A stretch of 64,000 nucleotides of DNA, from positions 1 through 64,000 of the forward strand of contig NZ_NSDM01000013.1 in NCBI RefSeq assembly GCF_030852425.1, written 5' to 3'. A program made the translations under genes and the position numbers. This DNA comes from Saccharothrix longispora (GTDB lineage Bacteria; Actinomycetota; Actinomycetes; Mycobacteriales; Pseudonocardiaceae). Shown piece after piece: positions 12,416-28,520 of this stretch (its first letter is position 1; every line of letters begins with the position of its first letter). The notes beneath the pieces are model-generated. The model saw nothing but the letters and a program-made list of their open reading frames with translations, was not told where the DNA came from and did not search any database.

Positions 12416-13978
12416 ATGGCGAACCGGAGCGCGATCGGCGAGGCCGCTCCCCTCGACGCGCCGGAGCAGCGGCAGCTCGACGTGATCCGCCGGTGGGGCA
12501 CGGTCGGGGCGCTGCTGCTGGCCGTGGGCTCGCTGGGCTCGGGCGCGGCGCCGGTGTTCAGCCCGCTGCCGGGCACGCCGGTGCTGGGGCTGTTCCCGCG
12601 GATGCCCAGCGCGTCGATGGCGGTGGCCTGGACGGGCATCTTCCTGATCGTCTCGGCGTGGCTGTGGCTGGGCCGGTTCGCCCGGCCGGGCCGGCCCCGG
12701 CTGATGACCCGCAGCCAGCTCGACCGGACGCTGCTGATGTGGATCACGCCGCTGGTGTTCGTGCTGCCGATGTTCAGCCGGGACGTCTACAGCTACCTGG
12801 CGCAGTCGCAGATCGCGGCCAACGGGCAGGACCCCTACGAGCTGGGGCCGGCCACGGCGCTGGGCGTGGACCACCCGCTGACCACGAACGTGCCCAACAT
12901 CTGGCGCGAGACGCCCGCCCCGTACGGGCCGCTGTTCCTCGCCGCGGGCCGGGTCATCTCCATGGTGACCGGCGACAGCGTGCTGCCCGGCGTCTTCCTG
13001 CACCGGCTGCTGGTGCTGCTGGGCCTGGCGATGATCGTGTGGGCGCTGCCCCGGCTGGCCCGGCGCTTCGGCGTGCCGCCGGTGAGCGCGCTGTGGCTGG
13101 GCGCGGCGAACCCCCTGGTGCTGTTCCACCTGGTCGTCGGCGTGCACAACGAGGGCCTGGCCATCGGCCTGATGCTGGTGGGCCTGGAGCTGGCGCTGCG
13201 GCGCATGCCGACGACGCCGGGCGCGCCGATGACCCGCGACGAGCTGCTGTGGATCGTGCTCGGCACGACCATGATCACGATGGGCGCGGCGGTGAAGATC
13301 CCCGCCGCGCTGGCGCTGGGCTTCCTCGGCGTGATGATCGCCCGCCGGTGGGGCGGCCGGTTCCCCGACCTGCTCAGGGCGGCATTGCTGCTGCTGGTCA
13401 TCTCGGGCGTGGTGATGGTCGGCACCTGCGTCGGCACCGGCCTCGGGTTCGGCTGGGTGCAGACGCTGAACACCGCCGGCACGGTCAAGAGCTGGATGTC
13501 GCCGCCCACCGCGATGGGTTTCACGGGCGGCGGCCTGGGCCTGCTGCTGGGCCTGGGCAACCACACCGAGTCGATGATCGTGCTGATGCGCCTGGTCACG
13601 CAGGGCGTGTCGGTGGTCATCGCGGCGACGCTGCTGTGGAAGGCGTTCCGGGGGCGCATCAAGGCCGTCAACGGCCTGGGCGCGGGCCTGGGCGCGGTGC
13701 TCGTGCTGGGGCCCGTGCTCCAGCCCTGGTACGTGCTGTGGGCGGCGTTGCCGCTGGCCACGGCCGTGCTGGCACGCCGCTTCCGGGTGTTCGCGACCAC
13801 CGCCAGCGCGGTGATCGCGGTGATCCTGCCGCCCACGGGCTCGGCGTTCGACGGCCGCGCCTACATCGTGCCGCAGGCCGTCACCGGCGCCCTGATCGCG
13901 TTCGCGGTGTGCGTGTTCGTGGCCCGCAAGCAGGTGTTCCCGCTGATCAGGAAGGACCCGCTGCCCGGCTCGGCGTGA
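12416..13978 (+). CDS. mptB: MptB-like polyprenol-phosphate mannose alpha-1,6-mannosyltransferase
   Basis: 520-residue GT-C glycosyltransferase with about a dozen membrane helices. It would extend the mannan core of lipomannan/lipoglycan on the outer face of the membrane using polyprenyl-phosphomannose. Seen directly are the early acidic motif MFSRDVYSYLAQSQ (GT-C catalytic loop) and ETPAPYGPLF after it. The mycobacterial mptB also lies next to sufR, supporting the name. ATG 12416 has GGCGGAG 7 bases upstream; GTG 12395 is an in-frame alternative. It diverges from sufR across about 100 bases. Substrate specificity is inferred. Confidence 0.85.
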   Translation: MANRSAIGEAAPLDAPEQRQLDVIRRWGTVGALLLAVGSLGSGAAPVFSPLPGTPVLGLFPRMPSASMAVAWTGIFLIVSAWLWLGRFARPGRPRLMTRSQLDRTLLMWITPLVFVLPMFSRDVYSYLAQSQIAANGQDPYELGPATALGVDHPLTTNVPNIWRETPAPYGPLFLAAGRVISMVTGDSVLPGVFLHRLLVLLGLAMIVWALPRLARRFGVPPVSALWLGAANPLVLFHLVVGVHNEGLAIGLMLVGLELALRRMPTTPGAPMTRDELLWIVLGTTMITMGAAVKIPAALALGFLGVMIARRWGGRFPDLLRAALLLLVISGVVMVGTCVGTGLGFGWVQTLNTAGTVKSWMSPPTAMGFTGGGLGLLLGLGNHTESMIVLMRLVTQGVSVVIAATLLWKAFRGRIKAVNGLGAGLGAVLVLGPVLQPWYVLWAALPLATAVLARRFRVFATTASAVIAVILPPTGSAFDGRAYIVPQAVTGALIAFAVCVFVARKQVFPLIRKDPLPGSA

Positions 13979-14067
13979 CCCGCGCGGGCGTGTAACCCCC
14001 TGCCCCGGCCGGGCGAGGTAGGGGTATCGGTGTCAGGTAGGACGTGGCCTCGGGGGAGGAGCGCGCG

Positions 14068-17000
14068 ATGTCCGACGTGCCGCAGGAGCAGATCCGGTTC
14101 GCGGTGGTGCTCAACGGCGGGGTGAGCCTGGCCGTGTGGATGGGCGGGGTGGTGCTCGAACTCGACCGCCTGACCAGGGGCGACGGCCCCTACGCCGCCC
14201 TGCTCGACATGGTGTGCGGGACGGCGCGCGCCGACGTCATCACCGGCACCTCGGCGGGCGGCATCAACGGCGCCGCGCTGGCGTTGTCGCAGGTCAACGC
14301 CAACGCGCGGGTGGAGCGGCTGCGGGACCTGTGGGCCGAGCAGGGCCGCATGGAGCAACTGCTGCGCACCCCGTTCCGGGGGCAGCCGGTGTCGCTGCTG
14401 CGCGGCGACGAGTTCTTCCTGCCCCGCCTGCACGAGGCGCTGGAGCGGCTGACCGCCGACTTCGAGCCGACCCCGCGCGACGAGCGGCCGGTGGACCTGC
14501 GGATCACCACGACGCTGCTGGCGGGCGTGCCGACGGTCACCCACGACGACCTGGGGCAGACCATGGTGCAGTCCACGCACCAGGGCAGCTTCTCGTTCCG
14601 CCGCGACCCCGGCGAGGGCGACCGGGACGACTTCACCGCCGAGGACCTGCCCGGCCTGGTGGGCCGCATGGCGCTGGCCGCGCGCTCCTCGGCGTCGTTC
14701 CCGTTCGCGTTCGAACCGTCGTTCATCCCGGTCGCGCCCGGCGCCCCGGACGGGGCCAGGCCGAACATGGACGGCGTCGCGTCCTGGTCCAACGGCACCG
14801 ACAACCGGTCGCGCTTCGCCGTGGACGGCGGCGTGCTGGTGAACACCCCCACCCGGGAGGCGCTGGAGGCCATCGACCGGATGCCCGCCGAGGGGCCGGT
14901 GCGGCGGGTGATGCTGCTGGTGTTCCCGCACGCCCCCGAGGCCGTGGTCGAGCCGGTCGCCCCGGTGGACGGCGCGCTGCCCAGCACCGTCGCCACCGGC
15001 GCGAAGCTGCTCGCCGCCCTCACCGGCCAGAGCGGCCGGACCTACGTCGACCGCATCGAGCAGCACAACCGGGACGCGGCGTCGCGGCGCGGCGGGCGCA
15101 ACGCCCTGCTCGACCGGCTGGCCGCCGACGGCCCGGTGGTGGAGAAGCTCTACGCGCTGGCCGGCACCCTGCACGAGCACTACGAGGACGTGCGCATCCG
15201 GCACGCCGCGCGCGACGTGACGACCCGGCAGTTCGAGGTGCCCGGCGCGAACGCCGCAGGCTGGACGTTCGAGCGGGTGCGCGCGGCGGCCGAGGCGGCG
15301 CAGCGGCGGCACCGCGCCCGGCACGGCGGCCTGCCGTACGTGCCCGCCCGACCGCAACCCGCCGCGCTGCCCGCGCACGGCTGGCCGTGGGGCATCACGA
15401 TGGCCGAGCGGCTCGTGTCCGCCGCGATGGACCTGCTCAAGCGCCTGGTGTGGGTGATGCCCGACGCGCAGCGGCTCGCCCTGGCCCGCACCGACCTCTA
15501 CGACGCGCGGACGCGGCTGCGCGCGGCCCGCGCCGAACTCGACGGGCACTGGACCACCGCCACCACCGAGGAGCTGGACCAGGGGTACTGGGAGCTGCGG
15601 GTCCGGCGGTTCGCGGAGAGGATGCTGGACGAGCCCGACGGCATCGGGCAGCGGGTGCGCGAGCAGGTCGACCGGATCGCCCGCGTCCTCGGCGAAGCGC
15701 ACGACACCCTCATCCGGTTCGACGACGACGGGCTGCGCGTCGGTGTGCTGCGGTCGTGGCACCGGCTGCTCACCGACCCGCCCACCGCCGGGGAGACCGC
15801 GGCCGGGCTGACCGGGGACGCGCTGCGGCTGTCGCGGGTGCTGGCGCTGGAGGTGGCGACCACGTGCCTGGCCGACGACACCCGCGGCGGCCTCGACCAG
15901 GCCGTCGAGCTGGTGCAGATCAGCCTCCGGACGCGCAACGCGTTCGCCGAGTACAGCCTCACCCCCGACGACAAGGCCGGCGGCGCGTCCCTGGGCCGGT
16001 TCTCCGGGTTCCTCAAGCGGTCGTGGCGCGTCAACGACTGGATCTGGGGCCGCATGGACGGCGCCACCATGCTGTGCAGGGTCCTGTTCGACCCGAAGCG
16101 GCTGCTGCGCGCCGACCGGCTGCGCGGCGGCGACGGCGACTCCGCCGAACGGGCGTCGCGGCGGGTGGACGAACTGGTGCGCGAGCTGTTCGGCGACTCG
16201 CTGCCCGACGAGCTGGCGCCGTGCGCGGCGCGCGCGAAGACCGCGCTGGCCGCCGTGTACGCCGACCCCGACGGGGACCACCCGCCGACGTGCGCGCCGC
16301 TGGCCGAGCTGGCCGCGTGGGCGCTGCACACCCGCATCGCCTGCGAGGAGCTGCCCGCGCTGCGCGCCGCGATCCTGGCCGACCGGCACGAGGGCGCGGA
16401 CCGGCGCTCGCGCGGCGAGCTGTTCCTGGAGGAGCAGGCCGCGCTGCTGGCGAAGCTGCCCGCGCGCACCGACGCCGAGCGCGTCGAGGTCGGCGTGCGG
16501 GCGCTGGCCGCGTTCGACCGGGCCGGCATCGGGCGCGAACCCCTCGTGCAGGAGGCGAGCAGCGACCAGGTGATCCGCACGGCGGCGACCGCGGCGGCGG
16601 TCGCGATCACCGTGGCCGACAGCGAGAACTCCGGCCTGGGCACGGCGAAACCGCTGACCAGGACGTTGCGCGGGGCGGCGCTGCTGCCGTACTGGACGAT
16701 CACCGGGCTGACCCGCGGCGGGCAGCTCGCCCAGTTCCTCGGGCTGCTCGGGTTCGCCCTCGGCGGCGCGCTGCTGGTGCTGGCCCTGTTCGACCTGCTG
16801 CCGCCGTGGGCGGTGGGCCCGGCGGCGGCGCTGGGGTCGGGCACCCTGCTCGCCGCGTTCGGCTACGCCGCGCTGCGCTCCGGCACCCTGCTGCACGGCC
16901 TGGTGCTGCTGTCGCCGGTGATCCCGCTGGTCACCGTCGCCATCGACCGGGTGCGCGACGAGATGGCCGACGGCAAGGCCGCGGCGCAGGCCACCACCGG

Positions 17001-17730
17001 CATGGTCGCCGTGGGCGGCGTGCTGCTGGTCGTCGTCGCGCTGCTGGTGATCGGCAGCCTGCCCGCGCCCGTCGGCACGCCGCTGGCCGTGCTCTCGAAG
17101 ATCAGGCTCAAGCCCAGGCTGCTGCTGCGGGTGCTGGTGGCGGCCGCGATCGTGGTGGGCGTGTGGGCGTTCGTGCGCTTCCGGCTCTACGACCTGCCGC
17201 CCGCGCTGGTGATCGCCGGCACGGTCGTGGCCGTCGTGTTCGGCGGCGTCACCTCCTACGCGCTGGGCAGCTCGCTGCGCCGGTGGCGGCAGGTCGGCGA
17301 CCGGTGGGAGACCGAGGCCGCCGAACCGCCCGCGTCGGCCACCGCCGGCTGGGCCGCCGTGTACGGGGCCGTACTGCTGGTCGTGGCGGCCGTCGTGCAG
17401 GTGTTCTCGCTGCGGTTCACCGGCTGGGAGGCGGTGCTGGCCACGGCGCTGTCGTTCGGCCTCGTGCTGCTGCTGGTCACCACGTGGTGGGTGCCGCTGC
17501 GGGCGCGCCGCACCATCGCCACGTCCCTGGTGGAGCAGATGTCCGTCGTGGACTTCGACCCGGACGAGGTGGCCGACGCGCTGCTCAAGCGCCTGGAGGG
17601 GCACGGGATGCTGTTCAAGTTCCTGACCGAGCTGGACCCCTCCTCGGGCAGGCCGCGGCTGGGTCCGGCGGGGCACCGGGTCGCGCAGCGCGCCGCCCGC
17701 CTGTCCAGCTCGGGCGTCGACGTGGACTGA
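14068..17730 (+). CDS. Giant patatin-like phospholipase with membrane C-terminus
   Basis: 1220-residue protein. The N-terminal 300 residues form a patatin-type lipid acyl hydrolase: glycine-rich loop NGGVSLAVWMGG, nucleophile S62 in GTSAGGING, and D253 in VDGGVLVN form the expected Ser-Asp dyad. The middle (about 300-860) is helical and unassigned, and residues about 865-1150 hold a string of hydrophobic helices. Architecture resembles the patatin-related/DUF3376 group found in actinomycetes. The ATG at 14068 follows GGGGAGGA by 7 bases; a GTG 24 bases upstream is less likely. It is followed after 73 bases by an unknown gene that may be a partner. The lipid substrate and orientation are unknown. 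Confidence 0.8.
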   Translation: MSDVPQEQIRFAVVLNGGVSLAVWMGGVVLELDRLTRGDGPYAALLDMVCGTARADVITGTSAGGINGAALALSQVNANARVERLRDLWAEQGRMEQLLRTPFRGQPVSLLRGDEFFLPRLHEALERLTADFEPTPRDERPVDLRITTTLLAGVPTVTHDDLGQTMVQSTHQGSFSFRRDPGEGDRDDFTAEDLPGLVGRMALAARSSASFPFAFEPSFIPVAPGAPDGARPNMDGVASWSNGTDNRSRFAVDGGVLVNTPTREALEAIDRMPAEGPVRRVMLLVFPHAPEAVVEPVAPVDGALPSTVATGAKLLAALTGQSGRTYVDRIEQHNRDAASRRGGRNALLDRLAADGPVVEKLYALAGTLHEHYEDVRIRHAARDVTTRQFEVPGANAAGWTFERVRAAAEAAQRRHRARHGGLPYVPARPQPAALPAHGWPWGITMAERLVSAAMDLLKRLVWVMPDAQRLALARTDLYDARTRLRAARAELDGHWTTATTEELDQGYWELRVRRFAERMLDEPDGIGQRVREQVDRIARVLGEAHDTLIRFDDDGLRVGVLRSWHRLLTDPPTAGETAAGLTGDALRLSRVLALEVATTCLADDTRGGLDQAVELVQISLRTRNAFAEYSLTPDDKAGGASLGRFSGFLKRSWRVNDWIWGRMDGATMLCRVLFDPKRLLRADRLRGGDGDSAERASRRVDELVRELFGDSLPDELAPCAARAKTALAAVYADPDGDHPPTCAPLAELAAWALHTRIACEELPALRAAILADRHEGADRRSRGELFLEEQAALLAKLPARTDAERVEVGVRALAAFDRAGIGREPLVQEASSDQVIRTAATAAAVAITVADSENSGLGTAKPLTRTLRGAALLPYWTITGLTRGGQLAQFLGLLGFALGGALLVLALFDLLPPWAVGPAAALGSGTLLAAFGYAALRSGTLLHGLVLLSPVIPLVTVAIDRVRDEMADGKAAAQATTGMVAVGGVLLVVVALLVIGSLPAPVGTPLAVLSKIRLKPRLLLRVLVAAAIVVGVWAFVRFRLYDLPPALVIAGTVVAVVFGGVTSYALGSSLRRWRQVGDRWETEAAEPPASATAGWAAVYGAVLLVVAAVVQVFSLRFTGWEAVLATALSFGLVLLLVTTWWVPLRARRTIATSLVEQMSVVDFDPDEVADALLKRLEGHGMLFKFLTELDPSSGRPRLGPAGHRVAQRAARLSSSGVDVD

Positions 17731-17803
17731 GCGCCGACGTGGGCCGGGCACCGGTGTGGACCGGGCGCGGGGGCGCCGGACCGCTCGGGGAGAATCGCCG
17801 CCC

Positions 17804-18784
17804 GTGACGGTTCTCGCGGTGGCCGAGCGGACGGCAGGCACCTCCGACCCCCGGACGCTCGACGTGTACGGGCGGTCGGTGGTGCGCGACGCCCTGGGCG
17901 TGGACGCGCGCGGCACGGGCGACGGCGTGCGCCTGTGGTCGCTGCTGCTGGCCGGCGCGGCGCGGTTCGGCGAGTCGTTCCCCGGCGCGGTCGCCGAGGT
18001 CCTGCGCACCTCGGGCGACCGCCTCAGGACCCTCGTCCACGACCCGGCCGCGCGGACCGCGCTGGCCGACGCCGACCCGGTCGACGACACCGACCACGCC
18101 CACCACCTGGCGCTGCTCGCGACCGCCGCGGCCGAGGGCGTGGACCTGGCAGACCCCCGCGCGCTGGCCCTGCTCGGCATGGACGACGGCCACACGACGG
18201 ACTTCGCGCTGCGCCTGTGGGGCTGGACCGTGCTGGGCTCCGACCTGTCGGACGGCACCCTCACCCTCACCGCGGCGGTCGAGGAGCGGACACCCCTGTT
18301 CACCGCCCTGGCCGCCGCCGTGCCCCACCACACGCCCGGCGCCGACCGGATCGTCGTGGAGCTCAACGGCGAGCACCGCCTCGCCGGCCCGGTGGAACCG
18401 TGGGCGGCGTTCCACACCCGCTCCCCCGACGCCGACCGCGTGCTCGTCCTGGTCGAACTGCTGGGCACCTGGACGTTCGACGACCAGCCGGCCATGACCC
18501 GCGCGGTGAGCCGCCGCCTGCTGGCCGGCTGGGTGGAGGAAGCGGGCACCCGCGACCCGCGCGCCGCGGTCTCCCGCCTGCGCCGCCTGCGCGAGGCCGC
18601 CGTGCGACTGGGGGACGACGAGCTGGCCGCCGCGATCCGGTCGCGCATCGCCGCGCTGCGCGACCCGGCGTCGATCTCGTTGGAGGACCTGGTGAGGTTG
18701 CGCGAGTGGCGCACCGCCCCGATGCCGGGACCGGAGGCGCTGAGCGACGACCTGCGCTCGCTGAGGACCGCGCGCGGCCTCTGA
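17804..18784 (+). CDS. Hypothetical protein next to the patatin
   Basis: 326 residues, not recognised. It is soluble, without signal peptide or membrane helix, rich in Ala, Asp, Arg and Leu, with strong coding bias. A central block (about 105-215) alternates hydrophobic strands, and the C-terminal third (about 230-305) is helical with many Arg and Glu. GTG 17804 is chosen for GGGGAGA 10 bases upstream. It sits 73 bases after the patatin gene and ends before a terminator hairpin, so the two are probably one transcript. A regulatory or substrate-presenting role for the patatin is only a guess from context. Confidence 0.7.
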   Translation: MTVLAVAERTAGTSDPRTLDVYGRSVVRDALGVDARGTGDGVRLWSLLLAGAARFGESFPGAVAEVLRTSGDRLRTLVHDPAARTALADADPVDDTDHAHHLALLATAAAEGVDLADPRALALLGMDDGHTTDFALRLWGWTVLGSDLSDGTLTLTAAVEERTPLFTALAAAVPHHTPGADRIVVELNGEHRLAGPVEPWAAFHTRSPDADRVLVLVELLGTWTFDDQPAMTRAVSRRLLAGWVEEAGTRDPRAAVSRLRRLREAAVRLGDDELAAAIRSRIAALRDPASISLEDLVRLREWRTAPMPGPEALSDDLRSLRTARGL

Positions 18785-18827
18785 CCGGTGGACCGGGACC
18801 GTCGGTGGTCGCCGGCAGGATGAAGAA

Positions 18828-18855
18828 CAGGGGTCCCCCGGGCGGAGGACCCCTG
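18828..18855. terminator. Bidirectional hairpin terminator
   Basis: Stem CAGGGGTCC / GGACCCCTG (9 bases) with a further imperfect inner stem, between converging genes. The same GGGGTCC/GGACCCC core occurs in the hairpin at 5541. Confidence 0.65.
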
Positions 18856-18888
18856 CACGGCGTTCACCGGTTCCGGCCGGCCGCGCCG

Positions 18889-20994
18889 TCACGCCGCCAG
18901 CGGCTCCCGCGCCACCGCCGGCAGGCCGAGCGCCGTCGCGTACAGCGACTCGAACGTGTCCAGCGTCGTGCCGATGGCGTGCGCCGCGATCAGCTCCCCC
19001 GACGCGGCGCCCATCCGCGCCGTCACCGCCGGGTCCGCCGTCACCGCGCGCAGCCGGTCCGCCAGCCCCCGCACGTCGCCCGGCGTGAACAACCACCCGT
19101 TGCGCCCCGGCCGGCACAGGTGCGGCAGCGCCATCGCGTCCGCCACCACCACCGGCTTGCCCGCCGCCATCGCCTCCATCGTCGCCAGGCTCTGCAGCTC
19201 CGCGATCCCCGGCATGCAGAACACGTCCGCCGCCGCGTACGCGTCCAGCAACTCCTCCTCCGGGACGAACCCCCGGAAGCGGACCCGGTCGGCGATGCCC
19301 AGGTCCCGGGCCAGCAGCTCCCACTCCGCGCGGCACGAGCCGTCACCGACCAGGTCCACCCGCAGGCCCGGCACGAGCGCCGCCGCGCGCAGCAGCTCGT
19401 CCACCCGCTTCTCCTCGTCCAGGCGCCCCACGAACAGCACCGTCGGCCGGTCCGACGACGCCACCCGCCGCCCCCGGTAGCGGTCGATGTCGATCCCGCA
19501 CGACACCGGCACCGCCCGCGCCGGGAAACCGTTGTCGTGCAACAGCTCCACCGCGCGCGGCGTCGGCGCCGTCACCACGTCCGCCACGCCGAACACCCGC
19601 CCCAGGTCCCGCCACGCCCACCGCGACGCCACCCCCCGCAACCACGCCGGCACCCTGGCGTGACCGAACAGGTTCTCCGGCATGAAGTGGTTCGTCGCCA
19701 CCGTCGGGATGCCCGCCGCGACCGCCTGCCGCAGCACGTACCGCCCCACCACGAAGTGCGCCTGCACGTGCACCAGGTCCGGCTCCACCTCCCCCAGCAG
19801 CACCTCCACGTCGCGCCGCACCTCCCACGGCAGGCCGATCCGGAACGTGCGGTGGAACGGCGTCCGGTGCGACCTCAACCGGTGCACCGTGATGCCGTCC
19901 ACGCGCTCCGTGCGGGCCTCCCCCGACGGCGACACGCACACCACGTGCACGTCGTGGCCGCGCCCCGCCAGGCCGGTGGCCAGGCGGTGGGCGAACCGGG
20001 CCGCGCCGTTCACGTCAGGCGGGAACGTCTCCGCGGCGATCACGATCCGCAAGGCGCGTCCGTCGTTCACTGTCGTCTCCGATCTGGTGGTGACTGCTTG
20101 GGTGGCGACCACCTGGGTGGTGCCTGCCTGAACTGGAACCGACTGGGCCGGGACCGACTGGGCCGGGGCTGCCCGACGAGCGGGGAGCGCACGGGGTGCG
20201 CGGGCCAGCGCCACCACGCCACCGACGGCGACGAGGGCGCAGGCGAGTTCGGCCAGGGCCACCGCGCCGCTGGTCCGGGTCGCCTCACCCAGCACCCCCG
20301 CACCCAGGCCCACGGCCACGAGCGGGTCCACCACGGTGAGGCAGGCGACCGCCACGTGCGGCGGTCCACTGGCGTAGGCGTGCTGGATGAACCAACCGCC
20401 GAGGACGAGGGCGACGCCGATGCCCGCCACCGAGAACGCGGTGCTCCACGACACCCCGCCGCGCTGCACGTCCTGCGACACCGCGCGCATGAGCACCGAC
20501 ACGAAGCCGTACGCCACACCGCCGGCCGCGCCGAACCCCAGCGACCGCGCCACCGGCCCCGACGCCAGGACACCCACCAGCCCCGGCACCGCCACCAGGC
20601 CCAGCGCCACCAGCGCCGCCCTCAGCTCGGCCTCCGGGGCCACCACCGTGGCCGTCGCGCTGCCCGCCGCCAGGAACACGAACGCCCCGACACCGGCCGT
20701 GGTCACCACGACGGCGGGCAGCTCGCGCCGCCGACCGTCCAACAGCGCCGTCACCCCGATGGCCACCACGCCCACCGGCTGCACCACGCTCAACGGCGCC
20801 ATCCCCAACGCCGCCGCGTGCACACCGGCCCCCGCGACCAGCAGCACCAGCCCGGACAACCAGCGCGGCCGGCGCACCAGCTCCAGCACCCGCAGCGGCC
20901 CCCCGCCCGCCCGCACCGCCTCGTGCTGCAACCGGGCCGCGAACGCGAAGAACACCGCGCCCACCACCGCCAGCCCCACGGCCAACCACGTCAC
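18889..20994 (-). CDS. Fusion of DMT-type transporter and GT4 glycosyltransferase
   Basis: One uninterrupted 701-codon frame. Residues 1 to about 275 are a drug/metabolite-type transporter with about nine to ten membrane helices, including the MAPLSVVQPVGVVAIGVTAL stretch typical of NIPA-like members. A Gln/Thr/Ser/Pro linker with short repeats (about 275-308) follows. Residues 309-701 are a GT4-type retaining glycosyltransferase with AAETFPPDVNGAARFAHRLA at its start and the E-x7-E region (IAELQSLATMEA) near its end. There is no stop between the parts. A GTG at 20070 with GGAGA 6 bases upstream could also start the glycosyltransferase alone. The GTG at 20994 overlaps the stop of the DUF998-like gene by 4 bases. 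Donor, acceptor and transported substrate are unknown. Confidence 0.78.
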   Translation of the reverse strand: MTWLAVGLAVVGAVFFAFAARLQHEAVRAGGGPLRVLELVRRPRWLSGLVLLVAGAGVHAAALGMAPLSVVQPVGVVAIGVTALLDGRRRELPAVVVTTAGVGAFVFLAAGSATATVVAPEAELRAALVALGLVAVPGLVGVLASGPVARSLGFGAAGGVAYGFVSVLMRAVSQDVQRGGVSWSTAFSVAGIGVALVLGGWFIQHAYASGPPHVAVACLTVVDPLVAVGLGAGVLGEATRTSGAVALAELACALVAVGGVVALARAPRALPARRAAPAQSVPAQSVPVQAGTTQVVATQAVTTRSETTVNDGRALRIVIAAETFPPDVNGAARFAHRLATGLAGRGHDVHVVCVSPSGEARTERVDGITVHRLRSHRTPFHRTFRIGLPWEVRRDVEVLLGEVEPDLVHVQAHFVVGRYVLRQAVAAGIPTVATNHFMPENLFGHARVPAWLRGVASRWAWRDLGRVFGVADVVTAPTPRAVELLHDNGFPARAVPVSCGIDIDRYRGRRVASSDRPTVLFVGRLDEEKRVDELLRAAALVPGLRVDLVGDGSCRAEWELLARDLGIADRVRFRGFVPEEELLDAYAAADVFCMPGIAELQSLATMEAMAAGKPVVVADAMALPHLCRPGRNGWLFTPGDVRGLADRLRAVTADPAVTARMGAASGELIAAHAIGTTLDTFESLYATALGLPAVAREPLAA

Positions 20995-21617
20995 GACCGC
21001 ACCTCCCGGCGCAGCGCCGCGACCGCCAGGAGGAACAGCACGCAGTACAGCAGCGCGAACAGGACCCGCTCGAAAAGACCGATGACCACCGCGCCGGAAC
21101 CCGGGAACAACACCGCCACGTGGCTCAACATGAATACGACCGACGTGATACCCGCGGCCACCGAAAACCGACGCAGAGCCGTACTCGCGATGAACGTCCG
21201 GGAAATCAACCACCCCGCCAGCGGCAACGCCGCGAACATCACCGCCCCCGCGTACCGGTGCACCGCCCCCGAGAACGACGTCGGCGAACCGGACGGGTCC
21301 GTCGGGAACACCGTCGCCACCGCCAACCCCGCCGACCACAGCCCCAACAGCACCGCCACCGGCCCCCGCCTGGGCAAACCCGACCGGACCAGCGCCACCA
21401 GGAGCGCCGCCGACGCCGCCGCGAGCGACAACGCCGTCACCGCCAGCAGCCCCGCCCCGTCGTCCACGAAGATGTAATCGCTGATCGTGTGCGTGATCGG
21501 ACTCAACTCGCCCACCGACGACACGTGCAGGTAAACAATCGGGAACAACGACAGCACAAGCCCCCCGACGGCCAACGGCACCACCGCCGCCCGCCGGTCC
21601 CCCCGGATTTCCGCCAT
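20991..21617 (-). CDS. DUF998-like integral membrane protein
   Basis: 208-residue membrane protein with about six helices. The motif SPITHTISDYI after the first helix and VFPTDPSG in the middle resemble the DUF998 family, whose function is unknown. The ATG at 21617 has only a weak AGGA upstream. It overlaps the transporter-glycosyltransferase gene by 4 bases, so the two are co-translated; together they may form a membrane glycosylation or export unit. Confidence 0.72.
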   Translation of the reverse strand: MAEIRGDRRAAVVPLAVGGLVLSLFPIVYLHVSSVGELSPITHTISDYIFVDDGAGLLAVTALSLAAASAALLVALVRSGLPRRGPVAVLLGLWSAGLAVATVFPTDPSGSPTSFSGAVHRYAGAVMFAALPLAGWLISRTFIASTALRRFSVAAGITSVVFMLSHVAVLFPGSGAVVIGLFERVLFALLYCVLFLLAVAALRREVRS

Positions 21618-21739
21618 ACCGGGATCCTGCTGCCGAAAGGACGCCGGAGGATATCCGGAACACCCCCGAGGAAACCCTGACCCCACCCGGAGAACCCTGG
21701 TGGGGCTGACCCCACCACCCGCACGGCACGCCGACGCCC

Positions 21740-21745
21740 TAGGCT
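21740..21745 (+). promoter_or_regulatory. -10 element of ABC exporter operon
   Basis: TAGGCT ends 8 bases before the GTG at 21754. No ribosome site is visible, so a leaderless message is likely. No convincing -35 was seen. Confidence 0.45.
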
Positions 21746-21753
21746 TCCCCGTC

Positions 21754-22688
<935 letters not shown>

Positions 22689-22692
<4 letters not shown>

Positions 22693-23474
22693 CCCACCCC
22701 CGCTTCACCCCCGGCACCTTCACCCCCGCACCCGGCCGCGGCCGGCTCGGCCGCATGCTCCTCGCCCAGGCCCGCACCGAAACCCTGCTCACCCTGCGCA
22801 ACGGCGAGCAGATCCTGCTCACCGTCCTCATCCCCGTCGCGCTGCTCGTCGCCATGACCCTCATGACGATCATCCCCGCGCCCGACCCGCGCGTCGCCAC
22901 CTCCACCGCGCGCGTCCTCGCCCTCGCCGTCATCTCCTCGGCGTTCACCGGCCAGGCCATCGCCCTCGGCTTCGACCGCCGCTACGGCGTCATCAAGCGC
23001 CTCGCCGCCACCGCCCTGCCCCGCTGGCTCCTCGTCGCCGGCCGCGTCACCGCCGCCCTCGCCGTCGTCGCCGTCCAGGTCGCCATCATCACGGTCGTCG
23101 CCCTCCTGCTCGGCTGGGACCTCCCGCCCGCCGGCGGCCTGCTGTGGACCGTCGCGCTCCTCGTGCTCGGCACCCTGTCCTTCGGCGCCCTCGGCGTCCT
23201 CCTCGGCGGCGCGCTGCGCGCCGAGATCGTCCTCGCCCTGGCCAACATCGTCTGGTTCGTGCTGCTGCTCATCGGTGGCGTCGCCCTCGGCGTCGAGGAC
23301 CTCCCCGGCCCCCTCGCCACCGTCGTCGACCTGCTGCCCTCCGCCGCACTCGCCGAAGCCCTCACCACCACCGTCGTCGACGGCGCCGCCCCCGGCGCCG
23401 GGCCCGTCGCCGTCCTGCTCGCCTGGGGCCTCGCCGCCGGAGCCCTCGCCACCCGCACCACCAGGGTCGACTGA
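22689..23474 (+). CDS. ABC exporter permease (ABC-2 type)
   Basis: 261-residue membrane protein with six helices, partner of the preceding ATPase. The stretch FDRRYGVIKRLAATALPRW between helices two and three is typical of ABC-2 permeases. The GTG overlaps the ATPase stop by 4 bases. Confidence 0.86.
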
Positions 23475-23505
23475 CCCCGCCCGGCAACCCTCAGGAACCG
23501 GTACC

Positions 23506-23511
23506 TACCAT
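23506..23511 (+). promoter_or_regulatory. -10 element for ctaA
   Basis: TACCAT ends 6 bases before the GTG at 23518, the spacing of a leaderless transcript; no Shine-Dalgarno is present between them. Confidence 0.5.
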
Positions 23512-23517
23512 CGGGAC

Positions 23518-24471
23518 GTGTCCGTCCCACCCTGGTTCACCCGCTTCCTCGGCACGTTCCAGCGCGCCTTCGCCATCGCCGTGGTCATCGCCCAGGGCGG
23601 CATCGCGGTCACCGGCTCGATCGTGCGGGTGACCGGGTCGGGCCTCGGCTGCCCCACCTGGCCCCAGTGCTTCGAGGGCAGCATGGTGCCCGTCGAGCAC
23701 CCCGAGGTCGCCTCCCTGCACCAGTGGGTCGAGTTCGGCAACCGCACCCTCACCGGCGTCGTCGGCGTCATCGCCGCCCTCTGCGTCCTCGCCGCCTGGT
23801 TCGACCGGCCCCGTCGGCGCCGCGTCGTCACGCTCGCGCTCATCCAGTTCGGCGGCGTCGTCCTCCAGGCCGTCGTCGGCGGCCTCACCGTGCTCACCGG
23901 CCTGCTCTGGTGGACCGTCAGCGTCCACTTCCTGATCTCGATGGCGCTCGTCTGGTTCGCCGTGCTGCTCGTCGCCGCGCTCCGCGAGGGCGACGAACCC
24001 GCCCGCCCCCTCGTGCCCCGGCCCCTGATGGCGCTCCAGGTCGTGCAGGCCGCCGTCCTCGGCCTCCTGCTCCTCGCCGGGACCTTCGTCACCGCCGCGG
24101 GCCCCCACGCGGGCGACGCGGACACCCCCCGCCTCGACGCCCCCGTCGACACCCTCGCCCAGTTGCACGCCGACCTGCTGTTCCTGTTCCTCGGCATGCT
24201 CGTCGCGCTCGGCTTCGCCCTGCGCGGCCACCCCGTGCCCCGCCGCCCCTACTGGCTGCTCGTCGCCGTCGTGCTCGCCCAGGGCGTGCTCGGCATGGTC
24301 CAGTACTGGACCGGCGTGCCCGAGGTGCTGGTCTCACTGCACGTGCTGGGCGCGGGCGCGGTGGTCGTCGCCACCGCCGCCCTGTGGACCTCGACCCGCG
24401 AACGGGCTCACTTCGTCGACGACGGCCTGCGCTCCCACACGGCGGGCAGCTCCGTCGCCAGCCACGCGTAG
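23518..24471 (+). CDS. ctaA: Heme A synthase (COX15/CtaA family)
   Basis: 317-residue protein with eight membrane helices that oxidises the methyl group of heme O to give heme A for cytochrome c oxidase. The first extracellular loop carries the conserved GSGLGCPTWPQCFEG with its cysteine pair. Conserved helix histidines appear in SLHQWVEFGNR, SVHFLIS, QLHADLL and SLHVLGAG. Its product follows that of CtaB, encoded at 38289. Its last 64 bases overlap the opposing GbsR-like gene. Confidence 0.9.
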   Translation: MSVPPWFTRFLGTFQRAFAIAVVIAQGGIAVTGSIVRVTGSGLGCPTWPQCFEGSMVPVEHPEVASLHQWVEFGNRTLTGVVGVIAALCVLAAWFDRPRRRRVVTLALIQFGGVVLQAVVGGLTVLTGLLWWTVSVHFLISMALVWFAVLLVAALREGDEPARPLVPRPLMALQVVQAAVLGLLLLAGTFVTAAGPHAGDADTPRLDAPVDTLAQLHADLLFLFLGMLVALGFALRGHPVPRRPYWLLVAVVLAQGVLGMVQYWTGVPEVLVSLHVLGAGAVVVATAALWTSTRERAHFVDDGLRSHTAGSSVASHA

Positions 24472-24872
24472 AGGTCGTCCACGGCGCGCAGCCGCATCGC
24501 CCGCTCCGGGTCGCCGCTCATCAACCGCATGCCCGACTCGGTCAGCTCGCGCACGCTGATCAGCGCGTCCAGCTTCGTCTGCACCAGGTCGGCCCAGCGC
24601 TTCTCGTTGATGCGGTACTGCGACGCCTGCCGGCCGCGGCGCGTGCGCTTCGTCACGAGGCCGGCGTTGACCAGGAACTTCATGTTCGTGCTGATCGAAC
24701 CGCTGCTCGCCTCCAGCTCCTGGGACAGCTCGGCGGCGGTCCGCTCGGTCGGTTGGCACACCAGCAGGTAGCCGAGGATGCGCCCGCCGATCAGCGGGAT
24801 GCCCTCCTTCTCGAAGTGCGCCGCGAACCGCTCGATCCACGCGGACAGCCGGGTTTCCCGTCCCACGCTCAT
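24408..24872 (-). CDS. GbsR/MarR-type transcriptional regulator
   Basis: 154-residue winged-helix regulator. The helix-turn-helix (about 45-85: RTAAELSQELEASSGSISTN, then LVNAGLVTKR) is followed by a wing and a C-terminal dimerisation helix. The form resembles the GbsR branch of MarR regulators. A GAGGGGG site stands before the ATG. The 3' end overlaps ctaA antisense by 64 bases. It may regulate itself through the inverted repeat upstream, or the ABC exporter; the target is inference. Confidence 0.82.
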   Translation of the reverse strand: MSVGRETRLSAWIERFAAHFEKEGIPLIGGRILGYLLVCQPTERTAAELSQELEASSGSISTNMKFLVNAGLVTKRTRRGRQASQYRINEKRWADLVQTKLDALISVRELTESGMRLMSGDPERAMRLRAVDDLYAWLATELPAVWERRPSSTK

Positions 24873-24965: not shown

Positions 24966-25490
24966 TCAGAGCCGGCGCAGGCCCGCGAGCACGCGCTCCA
25001 TCAGCCCGAGGTCGGGTTCCCCGCCGTCGCCGGAACCGGTCCGGTGCACGTCGATCAGGCCCCGCTCGGCCATGTCGCCGAGCAGGACCTTCGCCACCCC
25101 CAGCGGCAGCCGCAGCAGCGCCGCGACCTCCGCCACCGACCGCGGCGCCCCCACGAGCGAGATCACCTCGTGGTACTCGGCCTTCAGGCCGCCCGGGTAC
25201 TCCCAGTCGACCGCGGACACCAGCGTCTCGACCTCCAGCTGGTACGACGAGGTGGTGCGGCCACCGGTCCACGAGTAGGCGCGGACGATCGACGCCGCCT
25301 CCTCGCGGGGGTAGTCGAAGTCGTCGTCCTCGTCGTCGAACACCGGGCGGTGCGGCCTGGTGTCCCCCGTCGCCCCGGCCGGTGGCTGCTCCGGCACGGC
25401 CTTGCCCGACCGGCGCCGGCGCGAGTCGAAGCTGAACCCGTTGAGCAGGTCGGCGAACGCCTGCTCGTTCGGTGGCTCCCGATCGCTCAT
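24966..25490 (-). CDS. DUF742 protein (conservon CvnC-like)
   Basis: 174-residue DUF742 protein. An acidic linker (FDDEDDDFDYPREE, about 50-63) precedes the domain with SIVRAYSWTGGRT at its start and winged-helix-like ISLVGAPRSVAEVAALLRLP after it. Such proteins are the third member of actinomycete conservons. The ATG at 25490 lies 7 bases after the roadblock stop. Usually a small GTPase gene (CvnD) follows at once; here the next gene is an unrelated regulator. Confidence 0.87.
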   Translation of the reverse strand: MSDREPPNEQAFADLLNGFSFDSRRRRSGKAVPEQPPAGATGDTRPHRPVFDDEDDDFDYPREEAASIVRAYSWTGGRTTSSYQLEVETLVSAVDWEYPGGLKAEYHEVISLVGAPRSVAEVAALLRLPLGVAKVLLGDMAERGLIDVHRTGSGDGGEPDLGLMERVLAGLRRL

Positions 25491-25497
25491 GACCACC

Positions 25498-25941
25498 TCA
25501 CGCGGAAGGGCGGGCCATCATCCGCTTCGCGCCGTGGAGCTGAGCGCGCAGCTCTGGGGTGAGGAGCTGGCCGACCTGCTCGACGACGACCGTCATCTCG
25601 TAGGCGACCTGCCCCACGTCGGCGTCCGGCGCGGCCAGCACCGCGAGGCACGAGCCGTCCCGGATCGACATCAGCAGCATGATCCCGTACTGCATCTCGA
25701 TCACCGAGCGCAGCACCGCGCCGCCGTCGAAGCAGTGCGACGCCGACTCCGTGAGGCTCGCCACGCCGGCCGCGATGGCCGCCAACTGGTCCGCCCGGTC
25801 GTTCGGCAGCCCGTTCGACGCGGTGAGCAGCAGGCCGTCCACCGAGATCACCACGGCGTGGGCCACCCCCGGCACGCGCTCGGCGAAGTTGCCCACCAGC
25901 CAGCCGAACCGGTCGACCTGCCGCGACTTCTGCGTGCTCAT
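25498..25941 (-). CDS. Roadblock/LC7 protein (conservon CvnB-like)
   Basis: 147-residue roadblock/LC7 domain protein; the core from VPGVAHAVVISVDGLLLTAS to VVVEQVGQLLTP is typical. These proteins are thought to act as regulators of the partner GTPase and to bind the histidine kinase. The ATG overlaps the kinase stop by 4 bases. Confidence 0.9.
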   Translation of the reverse strand: MSTQKSRQVDRFGWLVGNFAERVPGVAHAVVISVDGLLLTASNGLPNDRADQLAAIAAGVASLTESASHCFDGGAVLRSVIEMQYGIMLLMSIRDGSCLAVLAAPDADVGQVAYEMTVVVEQVGQLLTPELRAQLHGAKRMMARPSA

Positions 25942-28520
25942 CCACTCTCCTGCCCAGCTCTGTTCCCACCGGATTCCCGCTCACCTTGCCGGACGCCGGT
26001 CTGGTAGCTGGCGAGGAAACCGCGTGTCGCCTGCGGATCCCTCCGTACGGGTGCCACCACATCGGGCGCACCCGGCCGTTCCGGCACAAGGTTGGTGCGG
26101 GGCCGCCTCTTCGGCAGCCCCGCCGGGTTCTCGTCCACGGGCGCCTCCCCGCGCTCGTGGGTGTCCGCGGCGCGGTGCCGCGCGGGTTCCGCGGGGCTCG
26201 ACGGCGCCCTGGTGCCGCCGAACCAGACCGACCCGGCGCGCCCGGGGCCGTCACCGGCGGGCGTGGCCGGGGTCGGCGCGTCGGGGGCGGTGGTGCCGCG
26301 GAACGGCGCCCAGCCGTCCTCCTCCAGCGGCACGACGGGAGGCAGGCCGGGCTTCGGCAGGACGGGCTGCGGCAGCGACGGCCGGCCCGAGCGCGGCGGC
26401 AGGTCCACCGCCGCGCCGTCGGGGGGTCCGGCGTGCGGCGCCGCCCGGTGCGCGCCGGGCACGGGCAGCCGGCCCGGACCCGGTCGGCCCACGACCGGCA
26501 GGGGACCGGACGGCGGTCCACCGGCCTGGGGCTGTGCCAGCCGCTGCGCCACCGGACCGCCGACCTGGGCGGGCACCGGGCGCGCGGGTGCCGAGGAGAC
26601 GGCGCGGACCAGTTCGGCGGGCAGCGCCACGACGGCGCGCAGGCCGTCGCCCTGCTCGCGCAGCACGACCTCGATGCCGTGCCGCCCGGCGAGCCTGCCG
26701 ACCACGTACAGGCCGAGCTGGCGGGACACCGGCAGCTCGCCGGACTCGTCCTCGGCGGCGAGCGCGATCCGGCGGTTGGCCTGCGCCAGGTCCTCCTCCG
26801 CCATGCCGACGCCCAGGTCGACCACGTCGACCAGCACGCCCCCGCCGGGGCGCGGCCGGCCGCCCACCACGACCTGGGTGCGCGGCGGCGAGAACGTGGT
26901 CGCGTTGTCCAGCAGCTCGGCGACCAGCCGGACCAGGTCGCCCGCGGCGTAGCCGACGACCTCGACGGACGGCGTGGTCTGCACGACGACGCGCTGGTAC
27001 TGCTCGATCTCGGACGCGGCGGCGCGCAGCACGTCGCCCAGCGGCACCGGGCGGGTGAAGCGGCGGGCCACGTCGCTGCCGGAGAGCACCATCAGGTTCT
27101 CGTTGTTGCGGCGCATCCGGGTGGCGAGGTTGTCCAGCTTGAACAGGTTCGCCAGCTGCTCGGGGTTCTCCTCCTGGCGCTCCAGCTCCTCCATGAGCCG
27201 GAGCTGCCGCTCCACGAGGCCCTGGCTGCGGCGGGACAGGTTGGTGAACGCGTTGCGCATGCCGGTGCGCAGGGCGGCCTGCTCGGCCGCGGAGCTGACC
27301 GCCTGCCGGTGCACCGCGTCGAACGCGCGCGCCAGCTGGCCCAGCTCCTCCCGGGTGTGCACGGGCACGGGCTCGACGGTCACGTCGTGGGCGCTGTTCT
27401 CGCGCAGCTGCGCGACCAGCGCGGGCAGGCGGTGCTCGGCGACGTCCAGCGCGGCGGTGCGCAGGGCGCGCAGCGAGCGCAGCAGGTAGCTGCCGACCAC
27501 GAAGCCGATGGCCGCGGCGGTGAACAGGGACGCCAGCAGGATCACCGAGGCCGCGCCGGCCAGGTCGGACGTGGAGTCCTGGAGGCGGGACGCGGTGGTG
27601 TCCAGCCGCGCCTCCAGGCCGCGCATCACGACGCCGAGCTGCTTGAGCGTGCCCTGCGAGCCGCTGTTCCACTCGTCGACGTCGACGTCGCGGACCGCGG
27701 CCGGGTTGGCGCGCACGTCCTGGAGGACGCGGTTGCGCACGTCGACGTCGGGGCCGGAGACGGCGGCGCGGTAGTCGGCCTGCTGCTCGGGGGTGGCGAC
27801 CGCGGAGAAGTCGGCCAGCTTGTCCTGCTGGCGGGTCCAGGACTGCTCCAGCGAGGTGCGCTCGGTGTCGAGCAGGGAGCCGCGGCCGGCGCCCGCGAGG
27901 ACGACGGCGTGCTGCCAGGACACCTGCTCGCCCGCCATGGCGAGGTTGTGCAGGGCGGTGGCCGTGCCGGACAGGGCCGGGTCGCCGAAGTCGCCGACCA
28001 TGGCCTGGTCGAAGTCCATCAGGGCGCGCAGCACCACGCTGTAGCCGCCGATGCCGCCGGAGAGGTCGACGCTGCCCGCGAGCACCCGGTCGCGCAGCTG
28101 CGGCAGGCCGTCGAGCTGCACGACCACGTCCCGGTACCGGGCGGCGGTGACCTCGCCGAGCGTGCTGGTGCGCCCCATCAGGTTCTTCACGCCCGCGGCC
28201 GCGGTGTCGGTGGCGCGGGTCAGGTCGCGGTAGTCCCGGGCGTCGACGCCACCGTCGTCCGCGCGCCGGGCGGCGAGGGCGCGTTCGGCCTGGACGCCCT
28301 CGATCAGCGGGTCGAGGCCGGCGCGCAGCGTGACGAGGCGCTGCATCGCGGAGTAGTTGTCCGCGCTCGTGACGTAACCGCGGATCTGCACGAGGCCCGC
28401 GCCGACGGCGACGAGGACCGGCACCGCCAGCACGGCGGCGAGCTTGACCGGCAGACGCCAATTCCGCCAGTCCGCGACGGCTCTCCACCACTGCCCGCGC
28501 GCGTTGTTGTCGCCAGTCAC
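25938..28520 (-). CDS. Sensor histidine-kinase-like protein (conservon CvnA-like)
   Basis: 860-residue membrane sensor. The first helix is at about 28-46, then an extracytoplasmic region of about 275 residues resembling nitrate/nitrite-sensing (NIT) domains. A second helix is at about 325-348, then HAMP, a coiled region with the conserved LATRMRRNNENLMVLSG block, and a GHKL ATPase domain (N-box LVAELLDNATTFSPP). The last 210 residues are a Pro/Gly/Arg-rich tail. As usual for conservon kinases, the phospho-acceptor His box is not obvious. GTG 28520 has only a weak ribosome site. It heads the three-gene operon. Confidence 0.88.
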   Translation of the reverse strand: MTGDNNARGQWWRAVADWRNWRLPVKLAAVLAVPVLVAVGAGLVQIRGYVTSADNYSAMQRLVTLRAGLDPLIEGVQAERALAARRADDGGVDARDYRDLTRATDTAAAGVKNLMGRTSTLGEVTAARYRDVVVQLDGLPQLRDRVLAGSVDLSGGIGGYSVVLRALMDFDQAMVGDFGDPALSGTATALHNLAMAGEQVSWQHAVVLAGAGRGSLLDTERTSLEQSWTRQQDKLADFSAVATPEQQADYRAAVSGPDVDVRNRVLQDVRANPAAVRDVDVDEWNSGSQGTLKQLGVVMRGLEARLDTTASRLQDSTSDLAGAASVILLASLFTAAAIGFVVGSYLLRSLRALRTAALDVAEHRLPALVAQLRENSAHDVTVEPVPVHTREELGQLARAFDAVHRQAVSSAAEQAALRTGMRNAFTNLSRRSQGLVERQLRLMEELERQEENPEQLANLFKLDNLATRMRRNNENLMVLSGSDVARRFTRPVPLGDVLRAAASEIEQYQRVVVQTTPSVEVVGYAAGDLVRLVAELLDNATTFSPPRTQVVVGGRPRPGGGVLVDVVDLGVGMAEEDLAQANRRIALAAEDESGELPVSRQLGLYVVGRLAGRHGIEVVLREQGDGLRAVVALPAELVRAVSSAPARPVPAQVGGPVAQRLAQPQAGGPPSGPLPVVGRPGPGRLPVPGAHRAAPHAGPPDGAAVDLPPRSGRPSLPQPVLPKPGLPPVVPLEEDGWAPFRGTTAPDAPTPATPAGDGPGRAGSVWFGGTRAPSSPAEPARHRAADTHERGEAPVDENPAGLPKRRPRTNLVPERPGAPDVVAPVRRDPQATRGFLASYQTGVRQGERESGGNRAGQESG

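Follow-up and report, generated by a model that had tools for sequence, protein, structure and literature searches.

A NIPA/DMT-like transporter and a GT4 glycosyltransferase fused in one reading frame in Saccharothrix longispora and its relatives, with what looks like a retained inner start

Results

Organization of the fused gene

We analyzed a stretch of 64,000 nucleotides of Saccharothrix longispora DNA, referred to here as the window. The organism is a high-GC actinomycete, and the closest named relatives among the best 80 of 511 matches, a set from which records very near the window may be absent, belong to Saccharothrix; Actinosynnema, Lentzea, Umezawaea and Amycolatopsis are more distant. 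The gene under study lies on the minus strand (20994 to 18889), starts with GTG at 20994, ends with a stop codon at 18891-18889 and forms a single open frame of 701 codons. The initial annotation had described a transporter that continues through a linker into a GT4 glycosyltransferase without a stop; inspection of the frame revealed that it is open as described, on the minus strand, which that annotation had left unstated. It had also pointed to an internal GTG at 20070 with its own ribosome site, and this arrangement was found in the sequence, in the order GATCGGAG, a 6-base spacer and GTG. The features of the locus are as follows.

18889..20994, minus strand: fused gene; 701 aa, about 73 kDa, comprising a NIPA/DMT-like membrane domain, a linker and a GT4 glycosyltransferase; frame intact in all 24 same-genus genomes
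20185..20994, minus strand: membrane domain, DMT/NIPA-like; residues 1-270; end-to-end DMT_1 match below cut-off and NIPA2 profile match
20071..20184, minus strand: variable linker; residues 271-308
20077..20084, minus strand: inner Shine-Dalgarno element GATCGGAG; core GGAG at 20077-20080; conserved in an alignment not anchored on the site
20068..20070, minus strand: inner start codon GTG; residue 309; start of the putative free glycosyltransferase
18892..20070, minus strand: predicted free glycosyltransferase product; 393 aa, about 42.5 kDa; residues 309-701
19174..19200, minus strand: E-x7-E motif; residues 599-607
20991..21803, minus strand: DUF998 membrane-protein gene upstream of the fusion; start provisional; Pfam DUF998 E 2.1e-22
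20991..20994, minus strand: GTGA overlap of the DUF998 stop and the fusion start; read from the window sequence
18828..18855, minus strand: hairpin of 12 pairs just 3' of the fused gene

Analysis of the glycosyltransferase half revealed scores above cut-off for both GT-B halves (PF13439, 91.9 bits, cut-off 28.5; PF00534, 120.7 bits, cut-off 26.4). The E-x7-E motif of retaining GT-B enzymes, at residues 599-607, was intact, with E599 present in 98% of 53 aligned rows and E607 in 100% of 52. The linker is thus followed by a full GT4 enzyme, as had been claimed. Among the NCBIfam equivalogs shown, the glycosyltransferase scored far under every cut-off and no subfamily was assigned. The hairpin 3' of the gene is strong and likely a terminator; folding as good as that of the hairpin occurred in 2 of 200 shuffles, and a terminator scan found 1 site compared with 1.4 expected by chance.

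The fusion recurs among relatives

A survey for matches identified them in 140 of 249 genomes of the family and 59 of 394 genomes of the class. The locus set comprised 100 stretches picked for spread, the genus included, together with 4 earlier loci. Transporter and glycosyltransferase were fused in 52 of these 104 loci and were separate neighbors in 47, so that the two were adjacent or fused in 99; the loci were selected by similarity to the window protein, and these counts are not population frequencies. The remaining 5 loci were scored as having no adjacent transporter, which lay more than 700 bases away in two (L101, L107) and was missing in three (L124, L127, L129). Both halves were present in all 23 other same-genus genomes (among 60 related genomes), and a single in-frame chain with no stop was found in 24 of 24 same-genus genomes including the window's own; these genomes are related, and their number is not a number of independent events. 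Sequencing error or misassembly was ruled out by the agreement of the 24 genomes, several of them within one contig, and a consistent separation of the two genes in relatives was ruled out by the 52 fused loci. The initial annotation had proposed a search of relatives and had named a stop hidden near the linker, or genes that are always separate elsewhere, as outcomes that would speak against a fusion; the search revealed a recurrent fusion, and both outcomes are excluded.

Of the named loci (the best 80 of 511, overlapping with the 104-locus set), 38 were fused and 42 separate; among these, Micrococcaceae, Microbacteriaceae and Brevibacteriaceae were separate in 29 of 29 cases. The comparison of loci shows a fusion spread over several genera. 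A tree of 118 rows was built from the locus set without L113, L123, L125 and the 5 unpaired loci, and with 22 of the 80 named loci added. This tree contained a fused clade in which 37 of 37 rows were fused (support 100/99; one pair of rows identical). The minimum number of changes between fused and separate states was 6 (bootstrap range 5 to 6 when the separate label was scored; 4 forced by well-supported branches alone), on trees that place some long branches together and for which no root was inferred; the fusion was therefore gained, or lost again, more than once. Correlation between the distance matrices for transporter and glycosyltransferase was 0.909 over 99 loci (maximum of 500 permutations, 0.170) and 0.903 in the 47 separate pairs. 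The two halves travel together, and plain vertical descent of neighbors would give the same correlation.

The membrane half resembles NIPA/DMT transporters

The initial annotation had assigned the first half to a DMT/NIPA-type transporter. It gave a match to NCBIfam DMT_1 that is end-to-end but weak (26.7 bits, cut-off 50). A profile built from 25 such membrane domains matched 133 positions, part of its length, to NIPA2 from the structure bank (E 2.4e-9). When four separate relatives were scanned with DMT_1, two passed the cut-off (59.8 and 82.4 bits) and two fell below it (35.2 and 26.0). The window protein scored 20.1 bits with Pfam PF05653 (Mg_trans_NIPA), under the cut-off of 26.2. Averaged hydropathy revealed roughly 8 to 10 hydrophobic stretches. 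The membrane half is NIPA/DMT-like in sequence and differs from those transporters in falling under the curated cut-offs and in carrying a fused enzyme.

These matches raise the question of what is transported. The closest solved relative, NIPA2, bears the name of a magnesium transporter and not that of a lipid carrier; the PF05653 cut-off was exceeded in 3 of 6 family members tested (L110, L123 and L060, with L117, L056 and the window below it); and these genomes contain, at other places, lone relatives of this half at about 40% identity. All three observations would suit a membrane half that moves an ion such as Mg2+ and acts only as an anchor or regulator for the enzyme, with no lipid flipped. 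We regard this as possible but unlikely, since pairing with a glycosyltransferase in 99 of the 104 chosen loci is unexpected for plain ion uptake, and the DMT group at large includes carriers of many organic substrates.

The reading frame is kept through a variable linker

The linker, counted between the C-terminal edge of the membrane-domain match and the inner start, spanned 8 to 219 codons in 32 genes, with 11 different lengths of 24 to 657 bases. These lengths are all multiples of three because the genes are fused, and the evidence lies only in the survival of the frame through at least 10 length changes. All 32 genes had a stop in the +1 frame within the linker or the 30 bases after it, so a shift to +1 would divide the gene once more; the remaining frame was often free of stops. 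All three relative frames were used in the separate pairs (11, 6 and 30). Because these genes share descent and their clade was recognized by being fused, no probability is attached to the kept frame. Three loci of the same genus (L147, L148 and L149) had linkers of 141 to 219 codons rich in Pro/Asp/His/Ala/Arg repeats, with the frame and the inner start both kept.

A linker that is hypervariable, of low complexity and up to 219 codons long (L147) would also be a plausible place for the read-through chain to be cut, in which case two separate proteins would be the working products and the fusion would have no role of its own. We consider this improbable. The frame outlived the changes in linker length although a +1 shift would have met a stop, and the repeated changes between fused and separate states on the 118-row tree indicate a fusion that arose or was undone more than once.

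The inner GTG has the properties of a start site

There were 102 in-frame ATG, GTG or TTG codons from residue 10 onwards, and residue 309 was the only one at which start codon and Shine-Dalgarno core were conserved together in the genus (in 22 of 24 genomes; the other two had ATG one codon downstream, behind the same GGAG). The next best site reached 33%. The inner site was identified in 37 of 37 rows of the fused clade and at 43 of 52 fused junctions, and was absent from the other 9; a GGAG-type core is a short sequence, and L109, which was classed as keeping the site, may be a chance case. Among windows of junction size taken from these genes, 7.3% contained an in-frame start behind such a core, compared with 43 of 52 junctions. 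A chance Shine-Dalgarno sequence was ruled out by this difference and by the conservation at residue 309. Both kinds of fusion were also observed within single genomes (G019, G105 and G039), as two fused copies of which only one has the inner start; the locus pairs are L078/L140, L097/L054 and L128/L089.

Conservation was also examined base by base. The third base of codon 304 was A in 28 of 28 aligned genes although the residue varied (Arg in 75%), and among the arginine codons of five window genes AGA accounted for 0.9%, and AGA and CGA together for about 2%. An invariant A combined with a varying residue and rare codons indicates selection on the bases and not on the residues. Per-base conservation in 32 genes was 0.91-1.00 at seven of the eight bases from -14 to -7 (0.78 at the eighth), 0.94-1.00 at the start codon, 0.34-0.78 at -40 to -15 and 0.47-0.78 at -5 to -1; this profile was anchored on sites chosen for core and start, and is partly shaped by that choice. 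The base after the inner start codon was A in 97%, with a variable residue. The site did not stand out by its duplex energy with the 16S tail alone, since many in-frame codons were as good or better (15 of 95 in the window gene), and conservation and mRNA openness replaced this measure as tests. In a sliding third-position test the site was outranked by conserved stretches elsewhere, mostly in the glycosyltransferase, and did not reach the top windows of four codons.

Openness was measured as the folding energy of 50 bases. The inner start of the 32 fused-clade genes had a mean of -8.7 kcal/mol compared with -19.5 over the remainder of those genes, and 29 of 32 fell in the weakest tenth. Values were similar at 11 further fused loci that have the site outside the clade (mean -10.0; 9 of 11 in the weakest tenth) and at the glycosyltransferase starts of 38 separate pairs (mean -9.3; 33 of 38); 42 of the 47 separate pairs had a Shine-Dalgarno start by the rule used, and 38 entered this test. 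The same rule identified 96 other in-frame Shine-Dalgarno places in the fused genes, with a mean of -19.3 (11 of 96), and the matching place in the 9 fusions that do not have the site had a mean of -22.9 (0 of 9). The transporter's own start was not open (-17.5); as this is a real start, not all starts at the locus are distinguished by openness, and the transporter's start may depend on coupling to DUF998 through the overlap. Judged by its sequence, GTG 20070 looks like a real start. The proposal in the initial annotation that it could release the transferase separately thus gains strong comparative support from conservation, chance rate and openness, and the gene would most likely give two forms of the glycosyltransferase, one tethered to the membrane (73 kDa) and one free (42.5 kDa).

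Two other uses of the junction were weighed. The Shine-Dalgarno-like core lies exactly between the two domains, where a conserved GGAG could make ribosomes pause so that the membrane half inserts before the enzyme is made, with the fusion as the only product; this appears quite improbable, as a pause needs neither a start codon nor open mRNA, yet both are kept, as at the starts of the separate genes, and the site is missing from 9 of the 52 fusions. That some ribosomes shift to +1 in the linker and stop, giving the transporter alone and three products per gene, would fit the +1-frame stop found in or just after the linker in all 32 genes and the A after the inner start, but that A is expected from an ancestral GTGA overlap and from start context, and we hold such a shift to be very improbable.

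Origin and operon context

Solihabitans fulvus is the sister of the fused clade (join support 97/93), and its genes are separate. The transporter TGA overlaps the glycosyltransferase GTG in this species as GTGA, behind GGAGGA. The A that follows the inner start in the fused genes would fit a trace of such an ancestral overlap. The start of the fusion itself read ATGA or GTGA in 31 of 32 genes, with the overlap verified in the window gene, and DUF998 lay upstream in 32 of 32 fused-clade genes; the DUF998 gene is probably in the same operon as the fusion. In the full locus set DUF998 lay on the upstream side at 62 of 104 loci and on the downstream side at 7, and the other 35 gave no match to the one query used, by which divergent copies may be missed. 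A DUF998 clone has been recovered in an esterase screen (PMC6302743), which points to no function for the present gene.

Several neighboring features were also recorded. A gene for a 1228-aa patatin-like phospholipase with DUF3376 (14044-17730, plus strand) is convergent with the fusion and adjoins it in 30 of 32 fused-clade loci, one of the two misses being a short locus. An open frame of 1668 aa (13861-18867, minus strand) lies antisense to the patatin gene and is most likely an effect of high-GC composition and no gene. A MarR/ArsR-like regulator gene (24408-24872, minus strand) and a CtaA/COX15 gene (23275-24471, plus strand) overlap tail-to-tail by 64 bases. At 24966-28520 on the minus strand, genes for a NIT-HAMP-HATPase sensor kinase, a roadblock/LC7 protein and a DUF742 protein stand in a row, which is the conservon (CvnABC) arrangement of actinomycetes.

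Discussion

We consider it likely that this gene is a fusion that has kept both of its parental products, a tethered enzyme of 73 kDa and a free enzyme of 42.5 kDa, from an ancestral overlapping operon. The ancestral operon would have carried DUF998, a NIPA-like DMT transporter and GT4, with the transporter stop overlapping the glycosyltransferase start as GTGA. A small frame change, for which one upstream shift would be enough, would then have abolished the stop between transporter and glycosyltransferase. Ribosomes translating the transporter would run on into the glycosyltransferase and produce the membrane-tethered form, while the retained Shine-Dalgarno sequence and GTG would allow ribosomes also to load inside the gene and produce the free form. 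More tentatively, the glycosyltransferase may glycosylate a lipid or a lipid-linked acceptor on the inner side of the membrane, and the transporter half may move the glycosylated product, or a related substrate, across it in the manner of UgtP and LtaA.

The comparison with UgtP and LtaA is drawn because glycosyltransferase and transporter are paired and fused here; the coupled flip-and-glycosylate function suggested as conceivable in the initial annotation is likewise based on the types of domain and their pairing. In Staphylococcus aureus, a glycolipid synthase, UgtP (YpfP), and the flippase of its product, LtaA, are encoded in one operon (PMC11237490). The likeness is that the genes for glycosyltransferase and transporter are adjacent and co-inherited at the loci chosen here. 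The difference is that UgtP and LtaA are two separate proteins, and that LtaA belongs to another transporter family, the MFS. MprF joins an enzyme and a membrane translocator in one chain, but it is an aminoacyl-phosphatidylglycerol synthase with other folds and another substrate. CheA, IF2 and ClpB are encoded by bacterial genes with an in-frame internal start that yields a long product and an N-terminally shorter one; in the present gene, by contrast, the inner start appears to be inherited from a formerly separate gene, and the long form combines a transporter with an enzyme. Inner starts and gene fusions are, as these examples illustrate, each already known kinds. Full-text literature outside most subscription journals yielded no description of a glycosyltransferase fused to a transporter of this kind, and among the papers listed on bacterial fusions, inner starts, LtaA and NIPA2 we noticed no direct precedent.

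The chances appear evenly balanced for a broader proposal, namely that the gene represents a lasting half-way state in which the read-through frame and the inner ribosome site are both under selection. Tethered and free pools of the enzyme would then be set in ratio by the two starts. The state occurs in several separate lineages, and fusions that have lost the inner site would be left with the tethered form alone.

The family shows three states, namely a separate pair (overlapping in the sister of the fused clade), a fusion with the start kept and a fusion without it. With these states side by side, gene fusion becomes testable step by step with natural controls, some of them within one genome. 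A fusion kept together with its inner start suggests how coupled genes can merge and yet keep a separate product. For annotation, such a gene may be recorded as one product when two are likely. The fusion also provides a hint that an uncharacterized NIPA-like membrane family works with a glycosyltransferase and, if it is true that the membrane half moves the glycosylated product, the gene would encode a one-chain make-and-flip machine built on a new type of transporter.
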